DNA from: Periplaneta americana
Taxonomy: Eukaryota; Arthropoda; Insecta; Blattodea; Blattidae
NCBI RefSeq assembly: GCF_040183065.1
Contig: NC_091120.1
Location: 169,601,488-169,665,487, forward strand
Direction of reading: 5' to 3'
DNA: 64,000 nucleotides
The number at the start of each line of letters is the position of its first letter. Position 1 is the stretch's first letter. Below are positions 9,677 through 57,597 of this stretch, one piece after another. The position numbers and the translations under genes are program-made. Below the pieces are notes generated by a model that was given only the letters and a program-made list of their open reading frames with translations, was not told the DNA's origin and did not search any database.

Positions 9677-9932
9677 GGCAACTATCTCAGCCTGCTCATT
9701 ACTTAATAAAGAATACCGTAGGCCTACCCTCTTATTGAGCAATGCAACAATGAAATATTTCCCACTCACAGTAGGCCTACTTATCTCTACAGGTTACCTA
9801 TCATAGGCCTATTGTTAAAGTATTTTCATCTATTCCAGAACAGAGGACACTTGCATGTGTGGATGAGCACGTTACGAAACCTCGTATATATCTTACTCTT
9901 TATTTTCAGATATATAGATATATTCAATGAAA

Positions 9933-9935
<3 letters not shown>

Positions 9936-9993
<58 letters not shown>
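9936..9993. repeat. (ATT)n microsatellite
   Basis: A perfect ATT run abutting the start of the SINE at 9994. The unique DNA before it (9676-9935) holds three TAGGCCTA octamers (9719, 9772, 9804). Confidence 0.95.
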
Positions 9994-9994
<1 letters not shown>

Positions 9995-10285
9995 CGTGCC
10001 GTAGTGTCGGGGCCTAAGGCATCATACCAGAACCAGCGTAACGGATTGAGTGCTGATTCAAATCATTTTGAAATTTCGACCAGTGTATGGGACCGGTGCC
10101 CACCCAGCACCGTAATGAATTTGGGTAGCGAAGTCCAGTTTCGAAAACGTCTGATGGGATCATCATACTGATCACACAATACCCCCGAACTGGTTGGTTG
10201 ATCGTTCATCTCTGCTGAGGCATATGAACATGAGGACAGCAACCGGCTGGTCTGCCTTGGTCCTTCATGGGCTGTTGCGCCACAG
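9994..10285 (+). mobile_element. SINE family 1, diverged copy
   Basis: Shares with the 143-476 copy the CCGT...GTGTCG head, the CAGTGTATGGGACCG block near 10080, the TTGGTTGATCGT block and the 3' end GGGCTGTTGCGCCACAGAT. The tRNA head has lost part of its middle. Confidence 0.82.
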
Positions 10286-10327
10286 ATGATGATGATGATT
10301 ATTATTATTATGATTATGATGATGATG

Positions 10328-10366
<39 letters not shown>
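10286..10366. repeat. (GAT)n/(ATT)n microsatellite
   Basis: Mixed GAT and ATT units between the SINE 3' end and the LINE 3' end. Confidence 0.92.
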
Positions 10367-10680
10367 TATTTAACCTGGCAGAGTTAAAGCCATACGGCCT
10401 TCTCTAACACTCAACCAGGAGTAAAACTGCGTTACAAAAAACACTAGAAATTTACAAAGTACACTACAATTTTACACACAAAACTGAATAAGATAATAAT
10501 AATAATAATAAAATGTAAACAACAAGTAAGTAGAAATCAGACATAATATATAACATAAAGAAAGAAAGAAAAAAGCATAATAAAATGTGAACAGCAGGTC
10601 AAAATAAATGAGATATACAAAGTATAAAAAATAAGACAATTATTGATAATAATAATAATGATAAAAATAAGAAAAGTAAC

Positions 10681-10711
<31 letters not shown>

Positions 10712-11284
10712 TAATAATACTAATAGCAGTAATAAAATAGTGCAGTACAAAGCATGCAATGAATACAACATTTTTAGGTACACACAGTAAGGAAAATTAT
10801 GATTATTTATAGCTCAACTTATCACATTAGAGATATACCATTATCGGAAAATATGAAAACAAAAATATAAAATAAGTTAAATATCACTAGAACATAAAAA
10901 AAATGTGAATACGTGGAAATATGCAATACAACACTTGTCATAAGAGTAAGTTAGTTTGGCAACTCGTCATAAGATAATTTTCTAACTTGGATTTGAAAGA
11001 TTTCAATGTTCGGCAGCCCTTGACTTCAGGCGGCAGAGAGTTCCAGTGACGAGAGGTAGCAACAGTGAAAGATGAGAAATACAGAGATGACGTGTGAAGT
11101 GGAATTTCTAGCGTGTTATCGCGTTGTGATTGAGTATTAATATTACGATAGCGAGAGAGAGTATGAAAACGAGCGAATAAATAATAGGGGGATGAAGTGT
11201 GCATAATTCGATATAAGAGAGAAAGTGAGTGCAGATTTCTCCTCTCATGTAACCTTAGCCATGATAACTTCTCGAAAGAAGGTG
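10367..11284 (-). pseudogene. CR1/L2-like LINE 3' end with 3' untranslated region
   Basis: Minus strand: the frame at 10938-11282 reads FEKLSWLRLHERRNLHSLSL, FARFHTLSRYRNINT, then FTVATSRHWNSLPPEV, CRTLKSFKSKLENYL and stop. R-W/HWNSLPPxV followed by LKSFKxKL is the usual end of CR1/L2/jockey-related reverse transcriptases. The downstream 3' region (10367-10937) ends in TCTGCCAGGTTAAATAAATA and the (AAT)n run, read on the minus strand. The copy is 5'-truncated at the SINE fragment. Confidence 0.8.
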
Positions 11285-11362
11285 ACATATGCTGAGGCAT
11301 ATGAACGTGAGGACAGCAACCGGCTGGTTTGCCTTGGTCCTTCATGGGCTGTTGCGCCACAG
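11285..11362 (+). mobile_element. SINE family 1, 3'-end fragment
   Basis: Almost identical to 10210-10285, including GAGGCATATGAAC, GACAGCAACCGGCTGGT and CCTTCATGGGCTGTTGCGCC. The LINE at 10367-11284 is thus bracketed by the same SINE end and the same GAT/ATT repeat. Confidence 0.85.
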
Positions 11363-11380
11363 ATGATGATGATGATGATG

Positions 11381-11419
<39 letters not shown>
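11363..11419. repeat. (GAT)n then (ATT)n microsatellite
   Basis: GATGATGAT passing into ATT units, as after the SINE at 10285. Confidence 0.95.
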
Positions 11420-11420
<1 letters not shown>

Positions 11421-11476
11421 CCACTTAAAGATAAAAATATGTTCTGTTTTCTAAAACTCGTGTGTTCTTTGCACAG

Positions 11477-11707
11477 GTACCGCTCTACAAAACTGCACTC
11501 CGAAAGTCTTCGCTATAAATACGGAAATCGAGGACCTCAGACGGGGGCGACTGGCCTTGTTCGATCATCATCTGGACTTAAGCTCCGGCAGTTCATCATC
11601 AACTTTGGGGAACTTTTCTGGTCCTTTCGTCGGTAGAACGAACTTTAATCCATATGCTGAATTCGTAAAGTTGCTGAGAGATCAACAAAAATGTATCACT
11701 AAAGAAG
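11477..11707 (+). CDS. Candidate protein-coding exon, function unknown
   Basis: From 11479 there are 76 open codons without an ATG start, reading in part TPKVFAINTEIEDLRRGRL, ALFDHHLDLSSGSSSSTLG and FVGRTNFNPYAEFVKLLRDQ. It is preceded by a pyrimidine-rich stretch and CACAG (acceptor, 11472-11476) and followed by GAAG|GTAGGC (donor at 11708). Two bases lead the first codon and one base trails the last, so the exon is symmetric (phase 1 in and out). The frame is closed just after the donor. Composition is more codon-like than the surroundings and I see no transposon motif. I do not recognise the protein. It lies on the same strand as Kr, and its 3' phase would fit the Kr exon at 58903, but that is only a one-in-three coincidence. 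Confidence 0.45.
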
Positions 11708-11708
11708 G

Positions 11709-12099
11709 TAGGCCTAAATAGATGGACAAGCAGAGCAGTAATAAGTCTTACACTTAACTTTTGAATAGTTCTAAATTGATTTCTTACTTGGGGGAGAAAA
11801 AATGAACGGAGCTTTTACTATTTTAACACTCGTATCACATGAAGTAGCCTAAGCAGTAGAAATCTTCCTGTTAGAGTATTTAGGCTACATTTTCCTCAAA
11901 TTTCCTGTCAAATTCTTATATTGCTTTAAAATATACAAAAGTTCATATTTAAGGAGATCATGCCTGTTTCTCAATCCATTACCATTAGATAAAGCATTAT
12001 TGCATAGAAACTAAACGAATACCGAACTTAGAATCGCGCTCGAGCGCCATCATACAGGGCGATTCAAAAGATTGTGCTGAAACTAAAGGAGCTTACGAA
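11709..12099. other. No supported gene
   Basis: AT-rich sequence containing TAGGCCTA at 11709, TAGCCTA near 11848 and TAGGCTA near 11881. Confidence 0.5.
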
Positions 12100-12148
12100 G
12101 TATTGTTGTTCAGTCAACTGTCCGAAGACAGGTTTGAACTTCATAAGT

Positions 12149-12930
12149 CAGGGCCGGGCATGAGAGCGGCTCCGTTTAGCCGGCCAGAGTTGCTCTCGCT
12201 CCGCAAGGCAAGCCGGAGCAGAACGCACACGCAGTGGCGGACTCACATTACAGCTACTGTCTTCCTCCGACGAGTTTAGCGCTGGGACCTGAGGTATTCT
12301 TGCCATCGGTGCGGGGGTTTGCATGTAGATTCTTTTGTTGCTACAGCCAAGCCGAGCCGAGCGGAGTAGGAAGTATTAATCGTCCAAAAATATGCAGTCT
12401 TCAGTTTGTAGTAGTGTGTGAATATTTCATATATCCTACATATTGTTTACCTAGCCCTATATGGTTTTGTTATTAATATATTAAATATATTGTTGCAATT
12501 TTTGCTCAAACATCTCCCTGATGTTAGCTATGTTAATATTATAGGAATTATTCATATCAAATATTTCACCGTTACAAGTCATTTTTAAGGAAACATGCTG
12601 TGGAAAAGTTTTTAGTTTTATTCTATTGGAATTTTAGAGTACGTGTGATTGGTATCGTGAAAAACATATTCCTATAATGTCATGCGAAAATCATTTGTTG
12701 GTGATATCTTAAAATACAAATCAAGTAATTTTACTTCTGAAGTGAGTTCAGCAGTACAGTATATTTAAATTGATTACTTTACAAATTGAATTCAATTCTA
12801 CTAACCGCTAAATTTTATAGTATGATTCTTCTTTTCATTTATATTATTGTAGTTTTATTGTGATTCTTCTTTTTATTTATTTTATTGTATTTGTATTTCT
12901 GGTGGTGTGATGGCCTTAACTTCACCAGAA

Positions 12931-12969
<39 letters not shown>

Positions 12970-13915: not shown

Positions 13916-13970
13916 TCATAAGGAGGAGATAATGGGGTAGAGTGGCCAGTTCCTTTCCTCCGCCAATGCA

Positions 13971-13978
13971 TAGGCCTA
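13971..13978. repeat. TAGGCCTA micro-insertion site
   Basis: Repeat X copy 1 reads GCATAGGCCTACATCGC where the copy at 52310-52760 reads GCATACATCGC: exactly 6 bp extra at TA. Confidence 0.8.
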
Positions 13979-14189
13979 CATCGCTGAATAGTAACATATT
14001 ATACTAGTCAGACTTCAGATGCATACAAACAATTGTTCTTCCTCTGACACATATCGTCAAGTGAGATATACTGCCTGATAATAGATGTACAACAGAGGTA
14101 CTGGAATATAACAATTATATAATAGAGTCATGGTCTATAAAGTAATTATGCGTTAGTATAAACCCATGTATATTATGGACATGTTGTAT

Positions 14190-14895: not shown

Positions 14896-15719
14896 CATGT
14901 TGGACAATATACCAATGGAATAATACTAATTTGTGCAAAAATTTAAGAAGTCGAAGGTTACATGAATTTGACTATTAATTTTAAATTACATCAAAAGTTG
15001 GTGCAGGTAATGCACCGTCAAAGGAAACTCTGTTGCACTCTCCCAAATAACACAGGTATCTCCCGAAACACATCAGATGCTGCAAGTATCCTGGCTAAAA
15101 GTTTTTCTGAGTCTTACAGGAAATCTTGTAACCGAGGCTCTTAATATCCCGACCATCCAGTCAGACTTCGTCTTTCGAACCCTCGTCCCTCATAGGCCTA
15201 TGCAAGGTTTTGGAAAGTCTCGAACAGCAAGAGAAAAATTCCATCCACATCAGCTGATTTTTTCACACATGTACAAAATTTGTTGATTTACTCCAGGAAA
15301 CTCTTGTACACAAAATTAAAAGTTAAGTAGTTATAAGCAAATTTGCATACGTTTTACTAACCCTGTAGAATGATCTACTACTTAATTTTTAAGCATCGAT
15401 ATATAAAACAACGAATTCCACAATTAGGATTCTTGAAGGTGATAGCGATACTAACGGTAACAAGTGATAAAATCAGTGAAAGTTTTATATTTACATCGAT
15501 CTGATAAAAGGAAAAAAGAACAACAAACATCAAATTCCTTAGAAAAATGGCAGAGTGCACTGTCTCTGACAAGAATAGTATCTACAAAAACAAGAACGGA
15601 AGTAATCTCTAAGAATGAATGGTGAGATCTCATAAGGTTACTGTGAATATATTATGTGTAATGAATTGAAAGTGCTTTTATTTTAATTCAGTAACTCAGA
15701 AAGACTCCAAACAACATTA
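14896..15719. other. No supported gene
   Basis: Short overlapping ORFs at 14962-15286 and 15378-15633 without recognisable motifs. TAGGCCTA lies at 15193. Confidence 0.5.
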
Positions 15720-16040: not shown

Positions 16041-16050
16041 AAAAAACTGT

Positions 16051-18522: not shown

Positions 18523-19459
18523 GCATTGTGTATCCTTTTATTCGATATGTTTTCGATAGTTTCATAATTTTATTCTTCCTTTAATTAATTATAAACAGTA
18601 TACAGTACTTGAAAGTTTGCTATTTTAAATCCAAATGTTTGTTCTCGAAAACTTCTTGCAAGCATTGTGTATCCTTTTATTCGATATGTTTTCGATAGTT
18701 TTATAATTTTATTCTTCCTTTAATTAATTATAAACAGTATACTGTACTTGAAAGTTTGCTATTTTAAATCCAAGTGTTTGTTCTCGAAAACTTCTTGCAA
18801 GCATTGTGTATCCTTTTATTCGATATGTTTTTGATAGTTTTATAATTTTATTCTTCCTTTAACTAATTATAAACAGTATACGTTACTTGAAAGTTTGCTA
18901 TTTTAAATCCAAATGTTTGTTCTCGAAAACTTCTTGCAAGCATTGTGTATCCTTTTATTCGATATGTTTTTGATAGTTTTATATTGAAAGTTTGCTATTT
19001 TAAATCCAAATGTTTGTTCTCGAAAACTTCTTGCAAGCATTATGTATCCTTTTATTCGATACGTTTTTGATAGTTTTATAATTTTATTCTTCCTTTAATC
19101 AATTATAAACAGTATACGGTACTTGAAAGTTTGCTATTTTAAATCCAAATGTTTGTTCTCGAAAACTTCTTGCAAGCATTGTGTATCCTTTTATTCGATA
19201 CGTTTTTGATAGTTTTATAATTTTATTCTTCCTTTAATCAATTATAAACGGTATATGGTAGCCTACTTGAAAGTTTGCTATTTTAAATCCAAATGTTTGT
19301 TCTCGAAAACTTCTTGGAAGCATTGTGTATCCTTTTATTCGATATGTTTTTGATAGTTTTATAATTTTATTCTTCCCTTATTTAATTATAAACAGTATAA
19401 GGTACTTGAACGTTTACTATTTTAAAACCAAATGCTTGTTCTCGAAAACTTCTTGCAAG
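18523..19459. repeat. 139-bp tandem satellite, seven units
   Basis: Units start at GCATTGTGTATCC: 18523, 18662, 18801, 18940, 19037, 19176 and 19320, ending at 19459. Five spacings are 139 bp. The fourth unit (18940) is 97 bp, a 42-bp deletion, and the sixth (19176) is 144 bp because of the 5-bp TAGCCTA insertion. Units are nearly identical, so the array is young or homogenised. Confidence 0.93.
19259..19265. repeat. TAGCCTA micro-insertion site
   Basis: The sister satellite unit reads GGTACTTGAAAG; this one reads GGTAGCCTACTTGAAAG, an extra 5 bp at TA. Confidence 0.85.
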
Positions 19460-20761
19460 CAATTTTTATCAAAATTAGAATAGGGTATTTATTTATTTTA
19501 TAAAAGTGATTTTTATTCATTCGTTCGTTCGTTACTTCTTTCGTTTGTTAATTTATTTTATGACGTATATTTATTTTCTGGTGGCACGTACCGATTCAGC
19601 ATATTGGAACCTTCGATACGCAAGAATAAATATTTTTATAAGAATATACCCGGAAGCTACTGAATAAACGTGACTCATCCCCGCCGGTAAATGCTCCGCA
19701 AATAAGGGGAATAGTTGATAGTAAATTTTACACTCGTGGACGATTAATATCTTTCAAATGTTTCCAGATTTATTTATTTAATATATTAGATTTCAGCTAC
19801 ATTAGGCATTGCAGCCCGAAAAAGCAGAAGCTCGTCCTCTGGCGTAGTTCAATTCAGTTATTCAAAATATTTTACAAAATTTGAAGAGAGTTCATTGAGC
19901 ACACTAATCTTAATATATAGTAAAATACAGACAATATGTAATAATATATACAAATATAGAAAATACCAAAGTAGGCTACATGAGTATTAGATTTCAATTT
20001 TAAACTCAATTAGCTTAAGAAAATACAAAACAATTAAATAATTAATCTAATTTGTTTCCTTAAATCTATGTGTGTTCAGTGTACTTAATTCAGGGTAAGC
20101 TCTAATTAATGCATTATATATTCTGGGTCCAAAATTTCATCTGTGCTTTAAACCAGCAGTTGTGTGGCATTTAGAAAGAAATTGTAGCTTTGTCTCGCAC
20201 AGTATTCATGGGGTTCAAATTTAAATGTAGGCCTATTGTTATTTTCATAGAAGTAAATCAGCAATGTTAATATATTATAAACTTCCTCCATACACGTAAT
20301 AAATAACATATCGACACCTGAATTTTTTAGGTCGAGGAGGATAAAATTACAATAAACACAGAAATTCATCATACAGCTGTGTATTCTTTATTATCTTCTT
20401 TAAATACTTTCTGAAAATGAATATAATAGCTTATGAATGTTATTCCCTTTGCGGTGAGTTTCCGTTTTCTTTGGAAATGTTGGAAAGATAAAACAAATGG
20501 ATATTGGAATCGATAATGTAACACTTTAATGGTTACAAATGTTCTCGTAGTTCAACTGAAACAAATGTGTATGAATAACTACAAGAAAAGGATGTTAAAT
20601 TTTGTTCGATACTTTCTTGTTTAAAATATGATAGCCTAGTTCGTTGTTGTAATTATACTTCAAACTATAGACGAATACTCTATAATCTTAACGAAAAGTA
20701 CATAGTAAATGATCAATTGTCTAAAAAAAATAAATAAAAATTACCTACTATGCTAAACTCC
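19460..20761. other. No supported gene
   Basis: AT-rich sequence. The ORF at 20148-20372 is not recognisable. TAGGCCTA lies at 20228. Confidence 0.5.
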
Positions 20762-20846: not shown

Positions 20847-22343
20847 CTAATTTCGCTAAGTTATGTCAATTTATGAATTTGACAAATAACGTGCGTACTG
20901 TGAACACAATTTAGCAAAGATATTAAGAAAAATTGCAAGAATTTATCTGTTGTCAGTTTTGCCTTATGGCTCTAGGAAGTATTTCATTATTAAAATCTTA
21001 AAATCAGTCTTTATTTTATATTTCAGAACTGAAATGAGTTTTTAAAATAGTCTACAACTGTTGAATAGAGCCTGATATATATTTATGGAGTTAATGAAAT
21101 TCCGCTTAATCATATCTCGACTAAAAATAACAATGTTTCGCCTGTCTTTCGCAAAGTAGTTCAATTTTATAGCAAAGGAAAAGTAATTAAATTAACTTGT
21201 TAATAATTAAATACAAACATTCATCTTTCAAACTAAAAATAACTTAAAATAACTTTCAACTTCAGAAAGTAGCTATAATTACACATTAACATAAAATTAA
21301 AACCTATATAAGAAGTCAAGAGCAACTGAGCTATTTAATAATTCAATTTCTTGGTGTAGTTATTATTTTTGTTGTATTTTTACTTTTTATATCGCATTAA
21401 GATCTACTTTAATGACATTTTATTGGTATACTTTGCCGTATAGACTATTATATTCAGAATGTAAAATCTTGTAAAGTGACCACAATGAAAATGTATTTTC
21501 CTTGTTTCTATTAATCTACGCAGTTCTACGGAATATATAAAGCGCTGATGGAATTGCATCATCCTCAGCACCGATCTGTGCCTACATCAGTTTATAATTT
21601 ATTTTCGTAACAAAATACCAAATAGCCCATAGAATTATATTAGATTATTTTATTAAATGTATTTCAGTCAAAAGGACTTATCAAAATTTTAAAACATACG
21701 ATTAACATACGTAAACTACTTAATCAAATTAATCTTAGAATATAAGTTAAACATTAATAGATATTAAACATGTTTATATTAATAATAGCTACATATTTTG
21801 TAATGTCCTTGTTATGTGTAATGGTATTTGTTTTAATTATTATGTGCAATAATTGAATTAGATGTTTTAACCAATAACTTGGCTTTCACCAATTATAATT
21901 AAATAGTTACGAGTGATACAATAATTAACACAACTATTATTTTAATTTTGTAATACACTTTTAATGTGTTTGATTTTAAATTTTCTTTAATTATCTACTT
22001 CAAGTGAATATGCTAATACTATCACATTTATTTTCAATGTCTATAATATGAGATATTGAACCCATGCCTGAAGATGCCAATAGGAGAAAACGTTTGCAAT
22101 ATATATTAGGCCTATTAATAACATCAAATTATTATATGTCTAAATATTTTTTATTGTTTTAAAATCTTGACAAGTAATTTTGCCTGAAATAATATATTTA
22201 TTGAAATAATCTAATATCATATTTTGACTTAATTGAATATCACCAAAATGTTTTTTAAAACCATAGAATTATGTTTGTACACTTCGTAAGTCCTAAATTC
22301 TTAATAAGGTATAATCACGTATTACGTTACCAACATACGGTTC
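20847..22343. other. No supported gene
   Basis: Very AT-rich, no coding signal and no recognisable repeat. TAGGCCTA lies at 22107. Confidence 0.5.
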
Positions 22344-22610: not shown

Positions 22611-23227
22611 CATACGGTTCTTAAGGCATTGTAATATGAAGTCCATAATTACTCCTATTAACAGGCTTATAGAATTTATTCATAGGACGGAATACTATAA
22701 CATCTCCAACGAGATATTATTTGAGAATTTCCTTTAATAGGCCTATTATCGATATGATAACACCTTGAAACTAGTTATTTTTACGGTATTACATAGGAAT
22801 AATATGTATAGCATAATTATATGAACTCAAATTGGATTGAGGAATATATTAAAGATGAAATCTGTAACATTAAATACGACCAAAGAATAATATAAAAACA
22901 ATAACAGCGACAGGTGATAAAATACTATGGCATATCATTGAACTCCCATAAAAATGATTCAATAATATTAGGATGTTTCTTAGGAATAAAAATAAATTCT
23001 AAAATTCTCCTCTCCAATCTACGTACACTTCAAACAACAAAATTATTCCATTTTACTATTCAGTTTTATTATTGTATTACTGTAGTTTAAATTGAATTCT
23101 ATTATTTATTAATTTATGCCATTTAAGACTCCCTACCATCGTAGGCTGCCTACAAAGTCAAGAGTACAAAATAACAAAAAATAGATAAATAATTGTCACT
23201 AATCCACCGCAAGATCCAGGTCAAGTT
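22611..23227. other. No supported gene
   Basis: AT-rich, with TAGGCCTA at 22738. Confidence 0.5.
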
Positions 23228-28412: not shown

Positions 28413-29266
28413 ATACGACACTAATTATGAGAGGAAATGATTTTATTTTAAATATTTGAGGATACTCAAAGAGAAATTGCAAATAATGTATCAAACTCTC
28501 TAGTAAATGTACACTTAGCTCTACATTTAAGGAGTTCATTTTCAAAACGTCTCTTGTCCATCTGATAAAGAAATTGAGCTCCCTGTGTCCATGTATTTTT
28601 CAAATATAGGCCTAACTCTACATATAACTGTCACGATTTGGCTTCAGAAAGCCCCCTAAAAGCATGCGTTAAAAGTGACTATTGTAATCAAACTGACTCT
28701 TGTCCATAGCAAAATTGCAACAAAATATTAGTTCCATCTTTGGAATCAAAGAGTCTCATGCTCCCATTTGATTCTAAATGTACCGAACCTCTTTGCTTTC
28801 ATAGTGTCTCTTGCCTAGCTGGTAAGAAATGTTAGACCTCAAAACGTTTTTCGTGATTGCCCAGGAAGTTATGGGAATGGACAAGGGTCGTTTTGAAAAT
28901 AAGCTCCTCATTTACAGACAGATTGTTACTGTTATAGTAAAGATGTGGTATTGCCGGAAGAGTTTTAATTATTTTTCTTTTGTCCTTTTAGGCTAAATAT
29001 AATATTGTGTCAACTTGCACGCCTTAGAAGCACTATAGGTATAATGTATGCGACTTTTCTGCAAACACAGACAGAGAAATATTAGTGCTAAAATAAAATT
29101 GCTTAAGTAGAAATAATAGCGTTGAAAAACAAAACTGCTTATGCAGAAGTGAGATAGTAGTTCTGCAGCTTTGTAAAGAAAGGCCTAGGCCCTATTCTTG
29201 CATATAGGCAGGGGCAGGTATTTTTGGAACTTAAACTGAGAGGATTCAATCCGGCATCTGAACTGG
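28413..29266. other. No supported gene
   Basis: No coding signal. TAGGCCTA lies near 28607. Confidence 0.5.
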
Positions 29267-29345
29267 AATCCGGTGTGGCTTAGTGGATAAAGTGTCAGCA
29301 CGTAGAGCTGAAAACCCGGGTTCGAGTCCCGATGCCGGAGAGAAG
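29267..29345 (+). mobile_element. tRNA-derived SINE, family 4, head only
   Basis: CCGGTGTGGCTTAGTGGATA (A-box) and GGGTTCGAGTCC (B-box) within a 75-bp tRNA-like unit ending TGCCGGAGAGAA. Related copies are at 43412 and 62051. Confidence 0.8.
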
Positions 29346-30942
29346 ATTAATTTTATTATTTGTAAACACAATATTGGTGCCGGAGGAGATTGTTGAAGAT
29401 TGATTTGTAGCTACTCTTGGCGGAGATTAATGGAAATTTTGGAAAATATAACTACTTTGGAATTACAGTATTATCTCAGTATGAATATTACTTTCCAAAT
29501 AATGAACATTAAAGGTTCGTTGGATTCTGGTAAAGGTACGGTATGCCCAATAGACAATATTTGTTGGATTGATGTTGGATTCATTCAAAACTAAAAAATA
29601 ACTTGCAGCCTTTAAATTAACACTTTCAAATTATTAGTGAAATGTTGAATTCTCCGTCTTTTGAGTTGACTAATATAATCAGAACACCTGGAATAGCCCT
29701 ACCATGTTGAAAAAAAGATCCGAAAAACTCAGAATATGAAATTCGCTTATAAAACGACGCAATAGTAATAATTCGCGAATGTGTTCATATTTCGCTATTA
29801 GAACTCTATTTCGCGATTTGTCGCGATTGTTTTATCCGCATATTATTAATCACAGTCATTTAATTCGTAAAGATTAGTAAAAATATATTGTATGCCTATT
29901 ATGTCGTGATTTTCGCGATCTCCATATAGGCTTAAATATTACTAGTCTCCATCATTTTGCGAAATACTATAACTGAATATGGTATATTGAATTAAAATAC
30001 ACAGATGTATAAACCACATTTACAGGCAACTTGTTCCTTTATTATTTACGCAGTAGCCTAACTAATTCAATTTCAGAATTACACACAACATTAAAACAAT
30101 ACAATATATTGCCGTTATTAAAATTTGTTAAATAACTAAAAAAGCTAACTTAACAATTATATACGTTACGCTAATTTTTAATTTATATTTAGGCCTATGA
30201 AGATTTTTTTTTGCAAAAATTACTGGGAATGATATAATTCCAATTGAATCATCGACTACTTTTGAAAATCTAAATTATAAATATATTCAACCTTAAATGG
30301 TGTGAACAAAAATACGACTAGTAAAATACCATGACAAAAAATAAAAAGAAGAAAAGAAAAACGAATATAATAATGTGACAAATCAATAAATAGTAACAGC
30401 TATTTACTTCATTAATATAAGACGTATATTAAAAAGACAAAGCAACGCACTTATATAAAGAACTTCACTTTGTTTCAATGTCTCCTTTCACATGAGCTTG
30501 ATTCTCTGTATCATTAAAAAAATTATAATTTAATAATAGCTGCTTATTATAACATTACGATCATAATGCAATTAATTCAGTATTGTAAGACAGTAAAACT
30601 TAGCTTTCTTCAAACTTTGGAATCAATATAATGAATAATATTTCTAAACGACACAGTTACAAATTGATATTCTAAGTAACAGCTATTCACTGGGAAAACA
30701 AACTACGCCATTTCAGTTTGCTAAGGAACTTATACTGAATAGAATAAAACCTCTTAAGGCGTCGTCGGTCGGATAAAACGGGATATTGATTCGTAGTGTA
30801 TGGACCCCTCACTCCGAGGAAAAACGCGTCATCGCAATTATGCTCGCTGTATTCTTTCAGACTTCTGAAGAAAAAGTTTTCTCCCTTACTGTTAAATGCG
30901 CCTTACAAAACAATACTATACAAATAATTTATTATTGCACAG
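29346..30942. other. No supported gene
   Basis: AT-rich. ORFs at 29400-29594 and 30786-31028 are unrecognised. TAGGCCTA lies near 30190. Confidence 0.5.
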
Positions 30943-30952: not shown

Positions 30953-30960
30953 TAGGCCTA
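30953..30960. repeat. TAGGCCTA micro-insertion site
   Basis: The left outer arm has ATTAGGCCTACTCGG; the complement of the right arm has ACATACTCGAG at the same place, lacking GGCCTA. Confidence 0.7.
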
Positions 30961-31012: not shown

Positions 31013-31020
31013 TAGGCCTA
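31013..31020. repeat. TAGGCCTA micro-insertion site
   Basis: Left arm ATGTTAGGCCTATGTGG versus right arm complement ATGTTATGTCAT. The following left-arm TAGACTA may be a degenerate scar of the same kind. Confidence 0.7.
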
Positions 31021-32487: not shown

Positions 32488-32919
32488 TAAACTATTACAG
32501 ACTCTCAAACATTCACATATTTAGTTTTCAATTATCGCTTATTGTCTAGCATCGCAATAATAATTAAAATTTCTTAGCACTTTCATTATACAAATGATTT
32601 GACAGTAAGGACGATTATAAGTGCTTATAATTTTCTATGCTCTTCATTCAGCTGATGCGTCCGTTAACAGTGGCGCTGTGAAAACAATAGTTTGTATATA
32701 GGCCTACACTGCGATTGTGTATTTCTTATGTCCGCAGATAGATAGAGCGAAGTTTTATTTACTTTCTATCTTATGAATGGTCTCCAGGGTATTTTCTTTT
32801 TATCTTATATTATAGTCTCTGTCTGATTACGCGTAGTTCCTGTGTTAAAAGCAATTCGGTCTCCATGTTCGGATGCAGATAATAGTATTAAATATTTATA
32901 CAACACAGTTCCATTATAC
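32488..32919. other. No supported gene
   Basis: No coding signal. TAGGCCTA lies at 32699. Confidence 0.5.
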
Positions 32920-33391
32920 ATTCATTCATTGTTTTCTGCACAGTAGCAGATTCTTCACTGCAAACCTAACATTCTCAAATCTTCCCCTTTTCCGCCTTAC
33001 TCTTAGTCTAGGCATGCATTTTAATGTTGTCTATCATCTGATATCTTCTTCAGCCTCGAACTTTTCTCCCGTTCACCATTCCTTCTAGTGCATCCTTGAG
33101 TAGGTAGTTTAGTCTTAGATAGTGATTTAGCCAATTTTTTTTCTCTTTCTGATTAGGCCTACTTTCAGCATTATTCTTTCTGCATCCATTCTCTCTAGCA
33201 CAGCTTCATTTCTTATTCTGTCTGTACATTTCACAAGCTTTATTATTCTCCATATCCACATTTCAAATGCTTCTAGTCGCTTCTCTTCATTTCGTCGTAA
33301 TGGCCATCTTTCTGCATCATACAATGCCACACTTCACACAAAGCACTTCACTAGTCTCTTCCTTGTTTCTTTTCAAAAGGTAGGCAGAAAG

Positions 33392-33585: not shown

Positions 33586-34032
33586 CCTCTCTTCATCTTC
33601 ATCCCGTACTACTCATAGATGTCATTTGGCTCCAGTAACATTTAATATCCTCTCTTCTTCTGTATTTTATTCTTCTTCCTCCTACTATCACTCCCTTCCT
33701 CTCCTGAAAACAGTCTAAATCTATATGTACAGATAGCAAAAATTAACTATGGATATTAATCAGCAGTTACCTCTACATTTAGGCCTACTTAAGAGTGCAT
33801 ATTCAATTGTGTATCTGAGTCGTATAAGATTCATGAAGTAGGTAATCATTTACTTAGAGGGAAACTTAATATGTTTCATGAAGACATTTTCCTTCAAACT
33901 ACGCACACTGTTATGTCTCCGCAGCAATTACACAAATAAAAATTGAACAGGGGTACCTCGGTTTCCAATTTACCATTGAATAATATTAGATAGATAATAT
34001 ATAATGTAATTATATATATACTTGAATCACAT

Positions 34033-36009: not shown

Positions 36010-36205
36010 TAACAATTTGTCAGTGTACATCTGAAGTCTGATTAGTGTAATATGCTACTAATCGGCGACATATGCAATGGAGGGGGAAAGAAATTGGTCA
36101 CCCTACTCCAATATCACTTGGCTTAGTTGCCTCATGAGTGATGTCTTATTGGTGTCACTTATGAAGTTCAAACCTGTCTTCGGATAGTTTACTAAACCAC
36201 AACAA
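36010..36205 (-). repeat. Repeat X, copy 2 (uninterrupted)
   Basis: Complement carries CTATCCGAAGACAGGTTTGA, ACTTCATAAGTGACACCAAT, CATTGCATATGTCGCC and CAGACTTCAGATGTACAC. It shows the empty site for the hAT insertion in copy 1 and lacks the GGCCTA insertion. Confidence 0.82.
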
Positions 36206-37999: not shown

Positions 38000-38007
38000 T
38001 AGGCCTA
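38000..38007. repeat. TAGGCCTA micro-insertion site
   Basis: The right MITE arm (complement) reads CAGAGTTAGGCCTACACTAA; the left arm reads CAGAATTACACTAA, an exact 6-bp difference at TA. Confidence 0.85.
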
Positions 38008-39674: not shown

Positions 39675-40140
39675 CTGAGGCAAGATTTATTGTTAGCAGA
39701 GTGCTAACTCTTTTCACTGAAAGGCGGTTTCTAACTCTAGTTTTTACAAGATTCATGCAACTAAATCCACGTTCACAATTTATAGTATGCGATGGAATTG
39801 TAGGCCTATAAATAAATTATAAGAAGCTGTTCATTTAACTTATTAACTTACATGAATTGTACCAACTCTTTGAAATCCATTCCTGAACATATATTGCTCA
39901 ATATATATTTTTTTAATATTGCCCATGCCATTAGTAGTTCATTTAAATTCAGATTAGTTCATACATATCTTTGATTTAATTTTCTCCATTACTATCTTCG
40001 TTTCTGAAGTCCAATGTGGTTGTCGCTCTTTTGAACATTTCCATTGAAAGTTTGTTGCATTTTTAGAAGTTGAGTAGCAAAATGCGACAAATGCGATCTT
40101 GGCTTAAAACCTGCTTCTAGTCAAGAAAAAAGCGGCATCG
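39675..40140 (-). pseudogene. hAT transposase C-terminal relic, second copy
   Basis: Minus strand: NCERGFSCMNLVKTRVRNRL, SVKRVSTLLTINL, preceded by stop-ridden sequence alignable throughout with 2725-3165. CERGFS with RNRLS is the hAT dimerisation signature. Confidence 0.78.
39801..39808. repeat. TAGGCCTA micro-insertion site
   Basis: Complement of this copy: TTTATAGGCCTACAATTCC; the other hAT copy near 3015: TTTATATAATTCC. GGCCTA is the extra piece. Confidence 0.78.
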
Positions 40141-45744: not shown

Positions 45745-47001
45745 TCTGTATATATAATTTGAACTGGTAATGGAAATTACGGGAAAACGGCTGAACGGAT
45801 TTTAATGAGTGACCCCTCATTTTCATGTCTGGCATTCAAAGTTTTTCGGAAAAATAGTAGTTTTCAGTGAAATGTCAATTTTCCTACATAATTTTCCTAT
45901 TTTCTAAAATCCATCTGTTGTCAGTTTTGATAACTAATTTTATTGAATCACGGCCGACTTTATTGAATTTCAGAACAAAACAAAACACACACTACAATAA
46001 ACAATAAGCTATTAGCCTACACGAAGGCCATGACCTGCAGGATTGCCGACATATTTAGAGCTCAAATTCAATTTGTTATTAAAAACTTCAAGACTTACTA
46101 AAAATAATTTACAGGTCTGATTCTGTGAGTACAGCTGTGTATTGGATATTCAAATCTACGAAACTTGAGGTGGTTTGATGACATAATTACCATTTTATAA
46201 ATTGCATATTATCATGGCTAATGACATGATGCGTCTTTTTTCATTAATTATACATAATATTAATGCTATATTGATGACATGAAAGTGAAACGTTTTGAGG
46301 TTATGTATGTAAATGTAGAGAATATCATAATTTAGATCTTCATTTCTATAATTTACTGAGTGGCGGCTATATATAACTACAAAACTTGCGTAAGATAATA
46401 ATATTGTTTTTAAAAATCAAATATTTTTATAGTTCTTAATCAAGTGGGGCTGGGTCTTTTTCATATACTTAATGGCGGTGTAGTGTAGATATTGATATGT
46501 GTCATTGTCTTCAGTATTGGCTCTAGAGAGCGCAAAAAATACAGTTCCTAAGGAAAGACCAAATGGTATTCCTTACTAATAAAATAAGAGACCTAGAAAA
46601 TTTTGTAGCCTCCACATCATTTCAGCATGATCTCTTAGTAGGATAAAATGATTTTACGCTCTACATTTCAAGTTCTACATGCAGCAGCTATACCAAAATG
46701 CTATTGTTCGAAAACTTGACATTTTTTTTTAACTTTTGCCTAAAATCCACAATGACCTGAAATAGCTATTGCTATCGTCCTGACATTGATACTTGCGTTT
46801 CCGCGTTGAAACTCAAAAATTGAAGCTGGCCAGGTTTAAAAAAAGTATGTGGTCTAAAAACCCCATTCAGAGGGAGTATGTTTCATTATTATGGAAGCAA
46901 ATAACTATCAAAATGTCAAGTATTCTTCATTGAAAATAAATCTGAAAAATGTTTATTTAACGAACTTAGTTTGCAGCAGCATTTGCTGCACAAGCCACTA
47001 G
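45745..47001 (+). mobile_element. Non-autonomous Helitron
   Basis: The 5' end starts TCTGTATATATAATTTG after an A (45744). The 3' end has a GC hairpin (GCAGCA-TT-TGCTGC, 46976-46989), eight bases, then CTAG (46998-47001) followed by T. TC...hairpin...CTAG inserted between A and T with no duplication is diagnostic of Helitrons. There is no Rep/helicase frame. Near the 5' end lies GAACGGATTTTAATGAGTGA. Confidence 0.83.
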
Positions 47002-50306: not shown

Positions 50307-50308
<2 letters not shown>

Positions 50309-50309
50309 A

Positions 50310-51078: not shown

Positions 51079-51080
51079 TA

Positions 51081-52264
51081 CAGTTAGATCTGGATATAGT
51101 GAACTCGGTTATAGTGAACATTCGGCTATATTGAACCTAAATCGTTGGTCCCGACCCGCATACTTTAAAAAGTACATTAATATCTCCGTTTATAATGAAC
51201 CCTCGCTTCGGTTATAGTGAACCTAAAACTATAACTTCTCCATGAAAATGTAATTTTAAAAAGGCCAAAATGGTAATTTCGGAAACCCTTTCTCCTATAA
51301 ACTTTCAAGAATATGTTCAAAACAAAATCTCAAACCTTCTACTCCTTAAGTGCATTGAAAGACGAACGATTTGTTCAGCTTAAAACATGTTAAAGTGAAT
51401 AGTGTATGAGTGAGGGATGAATGAAGGATTAGTTCTGACGCCTTTAAAGGAGGTTATTAGAAGAACAGGAAGATAAATTGTTTTCTTTTGTAAAAGGGAG
51501 TAGAGTAATGACGAAAGGGTAAATACAAGGAGGATTACAATATAATGGTCCTTAATCCTTCCTCCAGCATCTTTGTAAAAGTGAATCCGGGAAATTCCAA
51601 GGCCGAGTACACAGTAGCATACCTCTAGTGGGAAGAGGTGCGAAATCGGTCAGTGCTTACAACCTACATGGGCAGATTAGATTCAAGTTTCGAACTGTGA
51701 ACATCAGGATGTCGAAGCATAAAGTGTTCAAGTTGGAAGTTACAGCGAACATTAGTACTGATATTGAACGTGGTCTGTCTCAAACGGGTATTACTGTATG
51801 TGTAGCAAAGTCAATCAATCAATCAATTTAGGGCATTTCAAAACCTAAGAGGTTTTTAGCCTCATTCACAATATATCGCCATTCGTCTCTGTTCTCTGCA
51901 TCTTCTTGTCGTCCTCCCACTGTAGAAAGATTATCATATAGGCCTACTTGGTCCTGCCAACGGAGACGAGGTCTACCAAGAGGTGTCTTACATCTTGGAG
52001 AATAGTCGAAAGCTTTTCGTAGAAGAGAGTCTTCATCACGCCGTAGAACGTGTCCAAGCCAACGTAGTCTTCGACTTTTTATTAAGGCTATTATGTCCGG
52101 ATATTTATAAATATCCCTTAGTTCCCTGTTGTTCAAAATTCTCCATGTGTTATTTTATAGCAAAGTCAGTAGAATAAAAACAGACACTTCGGTTTTAGTG
52201 AACCTCGGATATAGTGAACGAAATATGCTGGTCCGCAGTGGTTCACTATAACCGGAGTTGACTG
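51081..52264. mobile_element. Tigger/pogo-like DNA transposon, non-autonomous
   Basis: Flanked by TA (51079-51080 and 52265-52266). Ends CAGTTAGATCTGGATATAGT and, on the complement, CAGTCAACTCCGGTTATAGT, each followed by GTGAAC repeats (TATAGTGAAC iterated), as in pogo/Tigger elements. The interior around 51300-51800 has a weak frame (51628-51831) with no clear transposase. A LINE fragment is nested at 51814-52157. Confidence 0.8.
51814..52157 (-). pseudogene. LINE family E tail inserted in the Tigger-like element
   Basis: Minus strand: NNRELRDIYKYPDIIALIKS, RRLRWLGHVLRRDEDSLLRK, TPLGRPRLRWQDQV, DNLSTVGG, NRDEWRYIVNEAKNL, stop, then a (TTGA)n-type tail. It is flanked by an 11-bp perfect duplication TAGCAAAGTCA (51803-51813 and 52158-52168). 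TAGGCCTA at 51939-51946 adds two codons (GL) after WQDQV. Confidence 0.88.
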
Positions 52265-52309
52265 TATTATTATTGTTGTTGTTATTATTATTATTATTAT
52301 TATTATTGT

Positions 52310-52760: not shown

Positions 52761-53023
52761 ACATTTGTGAATCATACACTTAAAATTTGAGCAATGAAAT
52801 AGATTTTGGAAATATTCTCCATTTTTGTAAAACAAATTGCACTCTGAATGTCATTTGGTACATACGAAACGATTAAATCCATAGGAATTTTAAAGATTCC
52901 TTCGGTCGCCATTGAGATAGTCCATAAACACGAAAGAAAACTGCACCAGCAACAAAACATAACTTCTCGACAACTAGTGAGACGGTTAGAGAGAAGAAAG
53001 TCGTTCGAGATAGTTTAAGTGAA

Positions 53024-53984
53024 AATGTGCCAAGTGACTGATACCACAAGAACAAAGTGAAATGTGCCAAGTGACTGATACCACAAGAACAAAATAAAAT
53101 GTGCCAAGCGACTGATCCCACAAGAACAAAGTGAAATGTGCCAAGTGAATGATACCACAAGAACAAAGTAAAATGTGCCAAGTGACTAATACCACAAGAA
53201 CAAAGTGAAATGTGCCAAGTGACTAATACCACAAGAACAAAGTGAAATGTGCCAAGTGAATGATACCACAAGAACAAAGTGAAATGTGCCAAGTGACTAA
53301 TACCACAAGAACAAAGTGAAATGTGCCAAGTGAATGATACCACAAGAACAAAGTAAAATGTGCCAAGTGACTGATACCACAAGAACAAAGTGAAATGTGC
53401 CAAGTGACTAATACCACAAGAACAAAGTGAAATGTGCCAAGTGACTAATACCACAAGAACAAAGTGAAATGTGCCAAGTGAATGATACCACAAGAACAAA
53501 GTGAAATGTGCCAAGTGACTAATACCACAAGAACAAAGTGAAATGTGCCAAGTGAATGATACCACAAGAACAAAGTAAAATGTGCCAAGTGACTGATACC
53601 ACAAGAACAAAGTGAAATGTGCCAAGTGAATGATACCACAAGAACAAAGTAAAATGTGCCAAGCGACTGATCCCACAAGAACAAAGTGAAATGTGCCAAG
53701 TGAATGATACCACAAGAACAAAGTGAAATGTGCCAAGTGACTAATACCACAAGAACAAAGTGAAATGTGCCAAGTGACTGATACCACAAGAACAAAGTGA
53801 AATGTGCCAAGTGACTAATACCACAAGAACAAAGTGAAATGTGCCAAGTGACTAATACCACAAGAACAAAGTGAAATGTGCCAAGTGACTGATACCACAA
53901 GAACAAAGTGAAATGTGCCAAGTGACTGATACCACAAGAACACAGTGAAATGCGCCAAGTGACTGATACCAAAGAACAAAGTGA
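53024..53984. repeat. 37-bp minisatellite, 26 units, with 222-bp higher-order repeat
   Basis: Unit AATGTGCCAAGTGACTGATA plus CCACAAGAACAAAGTGA, 37 bp. Start-to-start distance from unit 1 (53024) to unit 26 (53949) is 925 bp, exactly 25 periods, with no indels until the last unit. Variant positions (CTGATA, ATGATA, CTAATA, GCGACTGATCC; AAAGTGA or AAAGTAA) show that units 5-10 (53172-53393) repeat in the same order as units 11-16 (53394-53615). Long minus-strand ORFs exist only because the unit lacks stops on that strand. Confidence 0.96.
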
Positions 53985-54974
53985 TTAAGTGTATACTGGA
54001 GTGCATAGTATAAGACACACATCGTTAAACGGACACAGTTCAGTTGCAATAGTCTACTCTTAGTGTCTTTTATAAATATGAAATTAAAATTCTACTCCTC
54101 AACCGTACATTCGAAACGAAATATTTGCAGTTCTTAAAAATGTGAAATAGATGTCAGGAGATTCAAGTATTCTACATAGGACATAATCCCCGTGAAGACA
54201 CGCCATTCTGGTTCTACATAATACATGTAGTGGTGTGGCGAGTTCCCGGGCAAGGAAGACCAATATAACGCAGCTAACTCTGGATCTGAAAGGGTTGACC
54301 CGATTCCAGAGCATCAGAGGTTGAAATGTTTATACATCTCGTGCTAACAACAGCATGTTTACGAAGTCGAATCTAGGGCGAAAGGATCTTTAAACGGGAT
54401 ACAGAATTGCTCAACTCTTACTTAAAGAACAAGAGGTGGAACGAGATATAAACTGATTTGTCAAATCATCTCTCTTTGGATTCACGGACCAATTCGGAAT
54501 AATAATTACACCTCTAAACATACAGGCTAAACTAATTCTATCGAACTGTGTGGAAGAAAATACGATGGAAAATACAGCAATAATCCGGAATTATTCAAAC
54601 AGAAACTAATCGTTTATGTCAACTATCGATTTGTTTAATTCTCTCAACCGAATGGTGGGTTCTGTGTTAACCACTGAATCAGATATTCGCGTGTTAAACT
54701 CTATACCTACCGAATGTGACGAACTTTGAAAGGAAACAAATCCAAAGAACGACTTTAGAAAGAAGTAAATTTAGGGACCTATCTAGTTGGTTTACGAGAA
54801 GGCCCAGACGAAATTTAACGCCGATTTATTGGCACGTTTTCTGCTACGCGGACATACATCTCTGCAGACAAACTACCCGCAGTTCAGTAGCGATTTCTTC
54901 ATAAAGGATGTGAAGATCATCCTACAGCTTTATTTACAATAAACACTTTTATGTTTTATATTGATATTTTTAAA
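53985..54974. other. No supported gene
   Basis: ORFs at 54099-54314 and 54716-54904 are unrecognised. Confidence 0.45.
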
Positions 54975-55090
54975 GTCATTCATTCATTCATGTTTGTCTG
55001 CCCAAGGGCAGGTCTTTCCCTGCAAACCCAGCGTTCTCCAATCTTTCCTATTTTCTGCCTTCCTCTAGTCTTCGCATATGATCTACAGTA
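54975..55090 (-). mobile_element. LINE family C, 3' stub with (AATG)n tail
   Basis: Complement encodes RKAENRK-like residues then a GLQ-type end (GGCAGAAAATAGGAAAGATT, GAACGCTGGGTTTGCAG) and finishes GAATGAATGAATGAC. It matches the 3' end of the family C copy at 32920. Confidence 0.72.
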
Positions 55091-55350
55091 TGGCATCAGA
55101 TGTTGAAACTTTCGTAACTTGTTCTCCATTTGACTCTCGAACATAAACGTTTTAAGTTAAAAGAGACGTCAGGAATTGAAACTTCCGTAATGTTTTCTTC
55201 ATTTGACTCTCGAGCATTAAAGTTTCAAGTTAAAAGTGATGTCAGATGTTGGAATCATGCGTAACGTTTTCTCCAAGTCACTCTCGAGCATTAACGTTTC
55301 AAGTTAAAAATGACACCAGATGTTGAATTGAATTGAATGTAAAAGAAGGG

Positions 55351-55585
55351 GAGTCCACACTTGTGGAGTAACGGCGAAACCAGGCGGTCCGGGTTCGATT
55401 TCCGGACGGGGCAAGTCACCTGGTTGTGGTTTTTTCCGGGGTTTTCCCTCAACCCATACGAGAAATGCTGGGTAACTTTCGGTGCTGGACCCCGGACTCA
55501 TTTCACCGCCATTATCACCTCCATCTCATTCAGATGCTACATAACCTAAGACGTTGATAAAGCGTCGTAAAATAAGCTACTAAAA
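55351..55585 (+). mobile_element. SINE family 2, copy with head deletion
   Basis: GTCCACACTTGTGGAGTAAC, then directly GCGAAACCAGGCGG: the CAGCGCGTCTGGCC stretch is lost. B-box GGGTTCGATTTCC, end GATAAAGCGTCGTAAAATAA. Confidence 0.88.
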
Positions 55586-55659
55586 ATAGAAGAAGAGGGG
55601 TGAGGGCTATAACAGCGACTTGAAAGATCTGTTACGCATCCAAGTCATAATTTTTAAGT

Positions 55660-55893
55660 TAGTTATTTAACGACGCTGCATCAACTACTAGGTTATTTAG
55701 CGTCGATGAGATTGGTGATAGTGAAATGAGGCCGAGGATTCGCCATAGATTACCTGGCATTCATCTTACGGTTGGGGAAAACCTCGGAAAAAAACCAACT
55801 AGATAATCAGCCAAGCGGGGATCGAACCCGCGCCCGAACGCAACTTCAGATCGGCAGGCAAGCTCCTTAACCGACTGAGTTACGCCGGTGGCT
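55660..55893 (-). mobile_element. SINE family 3, full copy
   Basis: Minus strand: GCCACCGGCGTAACTCAGTC (A-box), GGGTTCGATCCCCGC (B-box), body GTTTTCCCCAACCGTAAGAT, end GCAGCGTCGTTAAATAACTA. The 3' ends of families 2 and 3 are similar (AGCGTCGTxAAATAA), suggesting the same LINE partner. Confidence 0.88.
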
Positions 55894-55904
55894 CCTCGTC
55901 ATAA

Positions 55905-56187
55905 TATCCTATCAGTCCAATAGTCTGATATTCTTAATGAATTTCATCAAACTACGCACTGGGACAATTGATAGCTCATCAAGCTTTGGAAAATGTTTTC
56001 CAAAGATGAGAGCTCTTTGATGGGCGAGTGCATTGCAGTCGCACAATAGATGAGCTACAGACTCATCTCTCTGTGAACAACGAGCACAGGCAGGGTTGAT
56101 ATTATGTCCCGTTCTGTACAGGTTCTTCTTGAGGACACATTGTCCTGTAAGGAATTCGACTGCCCAGCGGAGCTGTTTCTTGCTCAC
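55905..56187 (-). pseudogene. Non-LTR retrotransposon C-terminus with CCHC knuckle
   Basis: Minus strand: SKKQLRWAVEFLTGQCVLKK, LYRTGHNINPACARCSQRDE, SVAHLLCDCNALAHQRALIF and VRSLMKFIKNIRLL. The C-x2-C...H-x4-C knuckle after an LRWxxxLLTGHC segment is the usual C-terminus of jockey/R1-type polymerase-RNase H proteins. Only about 91 codons remain. Confidence 0.8.
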
Positions 56188-56290
56188 GGCAAATGTTAAA
56201 ACTTTCCTAACTTTTTCTCCATTTGACCATCGAGCATTAACGTTTCATGTTAACAATGACGTCAGATATTGAAACTTTCGTCTTACTCTT

Positions 56291-56641
56291 CAGCAGCCTC
56301 GGCGAAAATGTAACTCACGAGCACATTGTGGCTCGAAATGATAGCTATTCATTTCTCTTTCATCCTGCCTCCTCCATCCCCACACTCTCGCTCACTGGAG
56401 TCAAACTCCGTTCAATTTGTATTCGTCTCTGAACTGCGAGTGGCGTATCGTCGCAATGTCTCTCTCGAAACCATGTACCTCTACAAAAACGAAAGTTTCA
56501 AATAGGATGGGAGGACGTATTTTTTTGCTGCCAATATGATGAGAATAATAAATGTATGATTTGTTAACAACGGTTGTATAACATAAAACGGCATTATAGT
56601 ACATGTTACTGATGAAACATTAAAAGGATAAGTGTTGTTGC

Positions 56642-56692
<51 letters not shown>
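56291..56692. repeat. Unassigned sequence ending in (ATT)n
   Basis: No gene recognised at 56291-56638; an ATT run of about 17 units lies at 56640-56692. Confidence 0.7.
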
Positions 56693-56744
56693 CATCATCC
56701 TCGTCATCAACATCTCTGTACTTCGATCCTTTTTCAGCAGATGT

Positions 56745-56900
56745 ACGAAAAAGCGGTTGATCTTCAATTTAAACTCACAGATTTACAATGTGATGTAAGG
56801 ACTTGACAAATGTCAAACTTTTCAAATCTTTGCCAAAAAATAAATATCCGAAGCTTCGTTCTTTCGCTTGCTCTGTTGAAGCCATGTTCGTTAAAACTTA
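56745..56900 (+). pseudogene. hAT transposase fragment
   Basis: KAVDLQFKLTDLQCDVRT, stop, MSNFSNLCQ, INIRSFVLSLALLKPCS. The DLQCD core and the following Phe/Arg-rich stretch recur in the hAT element at 57972-58816 (ELIDLQCDLRAKDRF) and resemble the region before the hAT dimerisation domain. Confidence 0.62.
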
Positions 56901-57597
56901 CATTTGTGAAAAATGATTTTCAACAATGAAAATAGTAAAAACCAAATTTAGATCACTCTGTCGCAGAGACATTCTGAAGATAGTTAATTTTAGGTTGTGA
57001 TAATGTGTCCTATGTTTTCTTGTTCATTTCTTTCTTCGTTGCACGTACTAAACATTAGTTTGTAGCCTTGTACTGTATAAAATTATATTTAAGTGCTTGG
57101 CGTAAGGAAAATGAAAACCCGTTAATAAGTCACACAGTTGCTTCACTTCCCCTTCGGGTGTCCGCCTCTCACCATAGGTGCTATGCACGTTGCAGGTTTC
57201 ACAGTGGCTCGTCGCCGATCACATTTTGGCCAGGGCTGCTCTTCAGCATAAATGTTTCATGTTAAACATAATATTTTTACTCCGCAACGTCTGTGACTAC
57301 AGTGCTAGCGAGCTGGATTTTCATCCAGGCGGCATGTGTTCGATTCCCATGTCAGATCTGGCTGGAATTTGTGGTAGACAAAGAAAATGTTGCAGAATTT
57401 TTTCCGGGGTACTCCTGCTTCTTTCTTTCATTCCACCAACACACTCCACTTCCCCCTCTTTCATCTACCATCTGTAGGCCTAATAGTAAAAATAAGCAAA
57501 GGGAGTGTCTGGGGGTAGTACGGGTTTCCGATGCTGATCTAGGTTCTAAGGACTTGCGGCTTTGGGCTCGTCAGTATCCGATTATACTTTACCTGCA
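56901..57597. other. No supported gene
   Basis: Overlapping ORFs at 57068-57670 are unrecognised and run into the SINE. TAGGCCTA lies at about 57475. Confidence 0.45.

Follow-up and report, generated by a model that had tools for sequence, protein, structure and literature searches.

The window considered here is a stretch of 64,000 nucleotides of the Periplaneta americana genome (C4:169,601,488-169,665,487, in an assembly of 3.23 Gb), and its most distinctive feature is a short palindromic word, the octamer TAGGCCTA, in which two TA dinucleotides enclose the bases GGCC. Exactly 21 such octamers lie in the window, each at the position given in a preliminary description of this DNA, against 0.61 expected from an order-2 Markov model of the window. 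They are accompanied, as the same description had reported, by a 3-nt class consisting of 13 TAGGCTA and nine TAGCCTA words. The comparison of homologous copies supports the view that TAGGCCTA is a recurrent micro-insertion at TA, found genome-wide, and here we argue that these octamers are probably the excision footprints, or scars, of TA-inserting Tc1/mariner-like elements. The sites are collected in Table 1.

Table 1. Candidate scars in the window, with the state of the homologous copies where these could be compared.
Feature	Position	Observation
TAGGCCTA scar	1461..1468	exact octamer; no homolog in sample
TAGGCCTA scar	9719..9726	exact octamer
TAGGCCTA scar	9772..9779	exact octamer
TAGGCCTA scar	9804..9811	exact octamer
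TAGGCCTA scar	11709..11716	exact octamer
TAGGCCTA scar, repeat copy	13971..13978	copies near 36115 and 52700 without the 6 bp
TAGGCCTA scar	15193..15200	exact octamer
TAGCCTA (3-nt class) scar, 139-bp satellite unit	19259..19265	neighbouring units without 5 bp
TAGGCCTA scar	20228..20235	exact octamer
TAGGCCTA scar	22107..22114	exact octamer
TAGGCCTA scar	22738..22745	exact octamer
TAGGCCTA scar	28607..28614	exact octamer
TAGGCCTA scar	30190..30197	exact octamer
TAGGCCTA scar, presence/absence uncertain	30953..30960	6-bp gap in weak arm-arm alignment (arms too diverged)
TAGGCCTA scar	31013..31020	arm alignment too poor; no clean insertion visible
TAGGCCTA scar	32699..32706	exact octamer
TAGGCCTA scar, repeat copy	33154..33161	three homologs without the 6 bp, reading CA instead of TA
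TAGGCCTA scar	33780..33787	exact octamer
TAGGCCTA scar, copy of a miniature inverted-repeat transposable element (MITE)	38000..38007	four homologs without the 6 bp (two in L009, one in L007, window 37669-37444)
TAGGCCTA scar, repeat called a hAT relic in the preliminary description	39801..39808	copy at 2731-3138 without the 6 bp
TAGCCTA (3-nt class) scar	46013..46019	one copy, in L001, without 5 bp
TAGGCCTA scar	51939..51946	exact octamer
TAGGCCTA scar	57475..57482	exact octamer

Six of the window sites had been proposed to have a homolog within the window that lacks precisely the extra bases. This is clean for four of them (13971, 19259, 38000 and 39801), the last one being a change from TA to TAGGCCTA beside an A/G difference, whereas the two sites in the arms of an inverted element, 30953 and 31013, are not secure; the BLAST pairing at 30953 has 66% identity and no gap.

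The abundance of the octamer extends to the whole genome, where 457,526 copies were counted over 91 contigs, around 14 times the Markov expectation as scaled from 337 kb of sequence. This scaling (3.4 per 336.7 kb) would correspond to some 33,000 octamers, and hence to an excess of roughly 420,000, so that the lack of genome-wide enrichment that would have spoken against the micro-insertions is not what is found. The control word ATCCGGAT occurs 16,914 times, a figure that is a poor yardstick since the word contains a CpG. Most of the counts given below come from a sample of 336.7 kb, formed by the window and the pieces L001-L043 minus L015 (mostly satellite), and including three pieces picked for their octamer density (L021-L023) as well as fetched transposon copies. 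The sample holds 87 octamers against 3.4 expected, the top observed/expected ratio among the 256 palindromic octamers, with only TA repeats coming near. The unpicked random 10-kb pieces L001-L020 contribute 37 octamers in 200 kb, 5 kb of which are N, with a very uneven density: 13 of the 37 are in L010, and eight of these pieces have none. The dense pieces L021-L023 (C1:752-814 kb) contain 21 in 30 kb. Elsewhere, a viral contig set gave 14 contigs with two to three octamers each, which is uninformative; a search of a plasmid collection returned no match, and a literature search returned no report of a comparable genome-wide scar among the matches listed.

The evidence that carries the insertion is the state of the homologous copies. 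Each site in the window and in L001-L023, again minus L015, was compared with its homologs in the sample and scored as a filled or an empty TA. Complexity and edge filters were passed by 72 of the 79 TAGGCCTA sites, and 18 of these have homologs, whose majority state is empty at 12 sites, ambiguous at two, and filled at four. The controls are more often filled than empty: TANNNNTA words containing two or more G/C (90 of 400 sampled sites having homologs) are filled at 79 sites, empty at four and ambiguous at seven; TANNNTA (400 sampled, 108 with homologs) is filled at 91, empty at two and ambiguous at 15; AGGCCT without both TAs (23 sites, seven with homologs) is filled at six and ambiguous at one; and TA[CG]4TA except GGCC (37 sites, six with homologs) is filled at three, empty at two and ambiguous at one. 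A shortfall of exactly 6 bp in at least one homolog is seen at six of the 18 octamer sites, compared with one of 90 for TANNNNTA and one of 108 for TANNNTA. Since homologs mostly show an empty TA at the octamer sites, unlike at the controls, the octamer is an insertion, and where precisely 6 or 5 bp have been added at TA, a copy of the target stands on each side of the inserted bases.

The strongest case is a long interspersed nuclear element (LINE) copy in L010, where the scars at 7482, 7591 and 7976 were scored as empty in 15 of 16, 14 of 14, and eight of eight homologs, respectively; L010:1191 is likewise empty against eight copies. Other sites scored as empty show length differences other than six, for example -5 (L010:1191 and window 33154), -12 (L010:7149), -9 (L019:7492), +4 (window 38000), and an unreliable -21 (window 31013), which come partly from neighbouring indels. 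Of the four filled sites, L010:6504, L014:5936 and L014:6093 represent local duplicates, and window 30953 is a poor alignment. The 3-nt class gives a more mixed picture, with 14 of 76 sites having homologs (four empty, seven filled, three ambiguous), and five of the seven filled sites lying in related copies that have the word in common.

Classes of scars can be written as TA-GiCj-TA, and their frequencies form a distinctive spectrum. Besides the 2+2 class (GGCC), which is the octamer itself, the 2+1 class (GGC or GCC) is enriched, with 86 sites against 23.7 expected, and counts above expectation are also seen for the smaller classes 3+1 (GGG+C; 11 against 4.0), 3+2 (TAGGGCCTA; five against 1.15), and 3+3 (TAGGGCCCTA; one against 0.1). 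The classes 1+1 (TAGCTA; 50 against 57) and 3+0 (TAGGGTA; 16 against 20.7) are not enriched, and 2+0 (TAGGTA; 137 against 120) barely so. The order of GG before CC matters, as TAGCGCTA was found only twice against 2.0 expected. Three of the five 3+2 sites have homologs: L002:5633 is an insertion with respect to 11 copies, while L009:631 and L041:167 are common to related copies. The word TACCGGTA (nine against 2.15) has two sites with a homolog, at one of which, L016:1871, precisely 6 bp are inserted at TA, and it may represent a small scar class of its own. In two copies of a LINE, the same TA (CACGAGACA-TA-ATCATATAC) is interrupted by the 3+3 scar L010:553 and the 2+2 scar L010:7976. The anchor CACGAGACA followed by TAGGCCTA occurs at 60 dispersed places on 16 contigs (control 0), which are either separate hits or the descendants of one scarred LINE lineage.

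The scars also share a preference for their target. Over 157 positions, pooled from both strands and thus not fully independent, the base preceding TA is G in 54 (29.3 expected), C in eight (23.8), T in 38 (51.9), and A in 57 (52.0). The tetranucleotide CA[CT][AG] (CAYR) precedes TA in 8/157 positions (5.1%) for TAGGCCTA and in 9/156 (5.8%) for the 3-nt class, against 740 of 50,685 TAs (1.5%) in the background. This palindromic preference, in which C is avoided, a purine favoured and CAYR enriched, is present in both scar classes, which argues for their origin from a single TA-choosing integrase; the preference is similar to that of Tc1. Regarding their age, the 24 one-substitution neighbours of TAGGCCTA are scarce (148 against 112 expected, whereas the exact word exceeds its expectation by about 111, all counted on both strands), and this scarcity suggests, as a rough estimate, a divergence of around 4% per site since the insertion, making the scars younger than their host repeats, which are often 10-25% diverged.

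These observations would find their most likely explanation in the excision of Tc1/mariner-like elements whose ends are GG(G)...(C)CC and whose 3' overhangs measure about 2 nt. According to this model, a cut-and-paste element of this type would insert at TA, duplicating it, and upon its departure the staggered cuts would leave either flank with a 3' overhang of about two element bases, to be filled in by end joining. Retention of 2+2 bases would produce TA-GGCC-TA, the major class; the loss of one base (2+1) would result in TAGGCTA or TAGCCTA; and 3+2 or 3+3 bases would account for the rare TAGGGCCTA and TAGGGCCCTA. A Tc1/mariner-like transposase would be responsible for the cuts, and end joining for the final sequence of the scar. 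The class spectrum fits GGG(G) ends whose overhangs are mostly 2 nt long, in agreement with the Tc1/mariner excision described in PMC3878927, with 3' overhangs of 2-3 nt and a footprint composed of the overhang plus the target duplication. Given that one scar each of TAGGGCCTA and TAGGGCCCTA is an insertion, GGG ends fit better than GGC ends. The micro-insertions at TA put forward in the preliminary description have the composition and the target preference that Tc1/mariner-type footprints should show, and the GGC...GCC ends that it ascribed to the element are less supported.

A young family with such ends is indeed present. A scan for terminal inverted repeats led to a 218-bp, near-palindromic element at L014:9041-9258 (TA-GGGGAGAGTCGGGTAGTATCGGACA...), which has the general form TA-GGGG...CCCC-TA and is too short to encode a transposase. 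Among TA-GG terminal families in 264-284 kb, it alone held up, with L002:2604 and L003:652 as further candidates; L001:2063 and L017:2388 were discarded since their inverted repeats extend beyond TAGG, and a histogram of TAGG..CCTA distances had no strong peak. A search of the genome produced 1,297 first-look candidates, 40 of which were scored, the 39 others being 97-99% identical to the L014 element and their matches stopping at both TAs or a few bases away. The exact 22-base terminus (TA-GGGGAGAGTCGGG...) occurs 10,680 times in the genome (5,359 on the plus strand and 5,321 on the minus strand; control 0), and the usual lengths, among the 100 places listed, are 218 and 201 bp. TA borders each of the 20 fetched copies on both sides, and C precedes TA in none of the 40 flank positions. 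Five further copies comprise one of 496 bp with another repeat inside, and four ordinary ones with one changed terminus. The family thus has the terminal inverted repeats, the TA on both sides and the many near-identical copies of a TA-flanked MITE, a kind of element that includes the Stowaway and mariner types; no longer, coding relative was seen. The search for a GGC-ended TA element, which had been recommended, yielded as its sole candidate L005:6700-7205, whose flanks are conserved in 39 other scored copies, so that the element does not end there. A very active element is a plausible source of the scars, which would have been made by this MITE family or by older relatives sharing its ends.

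Compared with known systems, the scars share with the footprints of Tc1 and Sleeping Beauty a duplicated TA enclosing a few bases, presumably the terminal ones of an element, and would likewise arise from the end joining of 2-3 nt 3' overhangs (PMC3878927). However, they contain GGCC, GGC or GCC instead of C(A/T)G, there are hundreds of thousands of candidates in this one genome, and the candidate donor is GG-ended. The element itself is similar to other TA-flanked MITEs in its near-palindromic structure and non-coding length, and differs from them in its terminus and in that no partner element was found. The internal eliminated sequences of Paramecium are also bounded by TA and have a proposed Tc1/mariner-related origin, but their precise excision leaves a single TA (PMC3408717). 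ISL2EU and PIF-Harbinger elements have short AT-rich target duplications as well, these being AT or TWA (PMC4482050), whereas here TA is duplicated, preceded by A, G or T and rarely by C; these elements were discarded on that account.

Mariner and Tc1-like genes are plentiful in this genome, with 19,038 and 26,192 first-look candidates, respectively; the best 150 of each were scored and 20 copies fetched. The mariner copies L024-L027, which are 94-98% identical, have CGAG ends (terminus TA-CGAGGGGGATCCAGG) and belong to a very young, abundant family with many open frames of 387 amino acids among the best 150 of 19,038; four others (L028-L031) have no readable ends. The word TACGAGTA, a possible scar of the CGAG-ended mariner, occurs 24 times against 7.8 in the sample, and one of its four comparable sites is an insertion. 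A young Tc1-like family (L032, L033, L038, L039 and L043) has an open frame of 352 amino acids, is 98-99% identical over about 2.4 kb, and shows a right end ...CAGGGTAACTG-TA that reads CAGT. The ends of L034 and L035 are CACTCAGGG, with one L035 end being CATT, and those of L036 and L037 are CAGT. The Tc1-like L036 and L041 are near-perfect 1.7-kb palindromes, the end of L036 being TACAGTACCTGG. TACAGTA, taken as a Tc1 scar control, is found 131 times against 77, but its five bases are absent at only two of 36 sites with homologs, and most of these words are thus not scars.

Several observations weigh against excision by GG-ended elements. The readable ends of the Tc1/mariner copies fetched after scoring the best 150 hits of each family are CGAG, CAGT or CACT, which discards these copies as the source, and no autonomous element or transposase with the MITE termini was found, nor any locus having both the element and a scar. 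The numbers are also demanding, as each of some 5,340 pairs of exact termini would correspond to about 80 excess octamers, and the MITE copies, at 1-3% from the L014 element, seem younger than the mean scar at about 4%. The flanks of the MITE share the avoidance of C with the scars, but they cover only 40 positions. Some homologs have TG or CA in place of TA (L013:469 and window 33154), and the only one of the 11 3+1 sites with a homolog is no insertion. An assay for interrupted LINEs at CATGTAGCACG-TA gave no scars and no insertions among the 20 hits fetched out of 383, several of them near-identical to one another, and every difference was either a substitution or the loss of a single base within the LINE. 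Both the excess and the age gap would be accounted for by older relatives sharing the terminal bases of the MITE; none was found in the sample, and a population above a few tens of thousands would be expected to show up in the 264-284 kb. It is conceivable, if doubtful, that most of the approximately 400,000 scars are due to an activity in which scarring greatly outnumbers lasting insertion, be it an element whose copies hardly ever persist once excised, or a host enzyme that cleaves TA without a mobile donor. If this were true, the chief record of this activity in the genome would be the 4-nt palindromic scars and not the element copies.

The rival that survives best retains the excision process and gives the donor GGC...GCC ends and 3-nt overhangs, as originally proposed. 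Out-of-register GC pairing would then generate TAGGCCTA, and in-register pairing TAGGCTA or TAGCCTA, which predicts both main classes, no excess of TAGCTA, and nearly none of TAGGTA. The TAGGGCCTA and TAGGGCCCTA scars, few as they are, are not predicted by such a donor, and its only candidate, L005:6700-7205, failed, leaving no TA-GGC element found; we regard this variant as unlikely. Less probable still would be that a TA-cleaving host enzyme, such as a domesticated transposase, makes each micro-insertion without any mobile donor. The disproportion between 457,526 octamers and some 5,340 pairs of exact termini would be in line with it, as would the fact that no donor is seen at any scar site; however, a fixed GG..CC foreign to the target needs a source, and a matching element family exists.

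In a further rival, which seems very improbable, the two TA 3' ends left by a staggered break would each be extended with GG by telomerase or some other polymerase and then joined. The insect telomere repeat is TTAGG, with which GG after TA would agree, L016 has a short TTAGG-like run near 6417, and TAGGTACCTA occurs once (two both-strand counts against 0.2). Nevertheless, T should be favoured before TA and is instead reduced (38/157 against 51.9), T..A flanks are seen at one of 57 sites against about six expected, TAGGTTAACCTA is not seen, though almost none would be expected by chance, and the CAYR bias would be left unexplained. Finally, that the repeat consensuses contain TAGGCCTA and the shorter copies are deletions is hardly credible and already contradicted, since the homologs of only four of the 18 comparable sites were scored as octamer-bearing, these being the local duplicates and the poor alignment mentioned above, and 12 sites are empty in most homologs.

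Other features of the window include three tandem arrays, at 53017-53984 (a 37-bp unit repeated 26 times), 18523-19503 (a 139-bp satellite), and 59819-60333 (a 103-bp unit repeated five times), together with numerous (AAT)n-type runs; the pure ones have 13-25 units, and some of the runs adjoin LINE-like fragments. An open frame for a C2H2 zinc-finger protein of 425 amino acids is located at 62349-63623 on the plus strand and presumably resembles insect Kruppel. Two tRNA-family matches (29269-29340 and 62051-62122, plus strand) lie inside related repeats that align to each other, perhaps a tRNA-derived short interspersed nuclear element.

Excision footprints are usually studied singly. In this genome, one octamer seems to mark them across 3.2 Gb, in such a way that excisions, targets, repair outcomes and timing might be countable without the element at hand, and the same octamer count is applicable to any genome. 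For P. americana, the process would represent a large and specific cause of mutation by micro-insertion, and would also create new palindromic sites.

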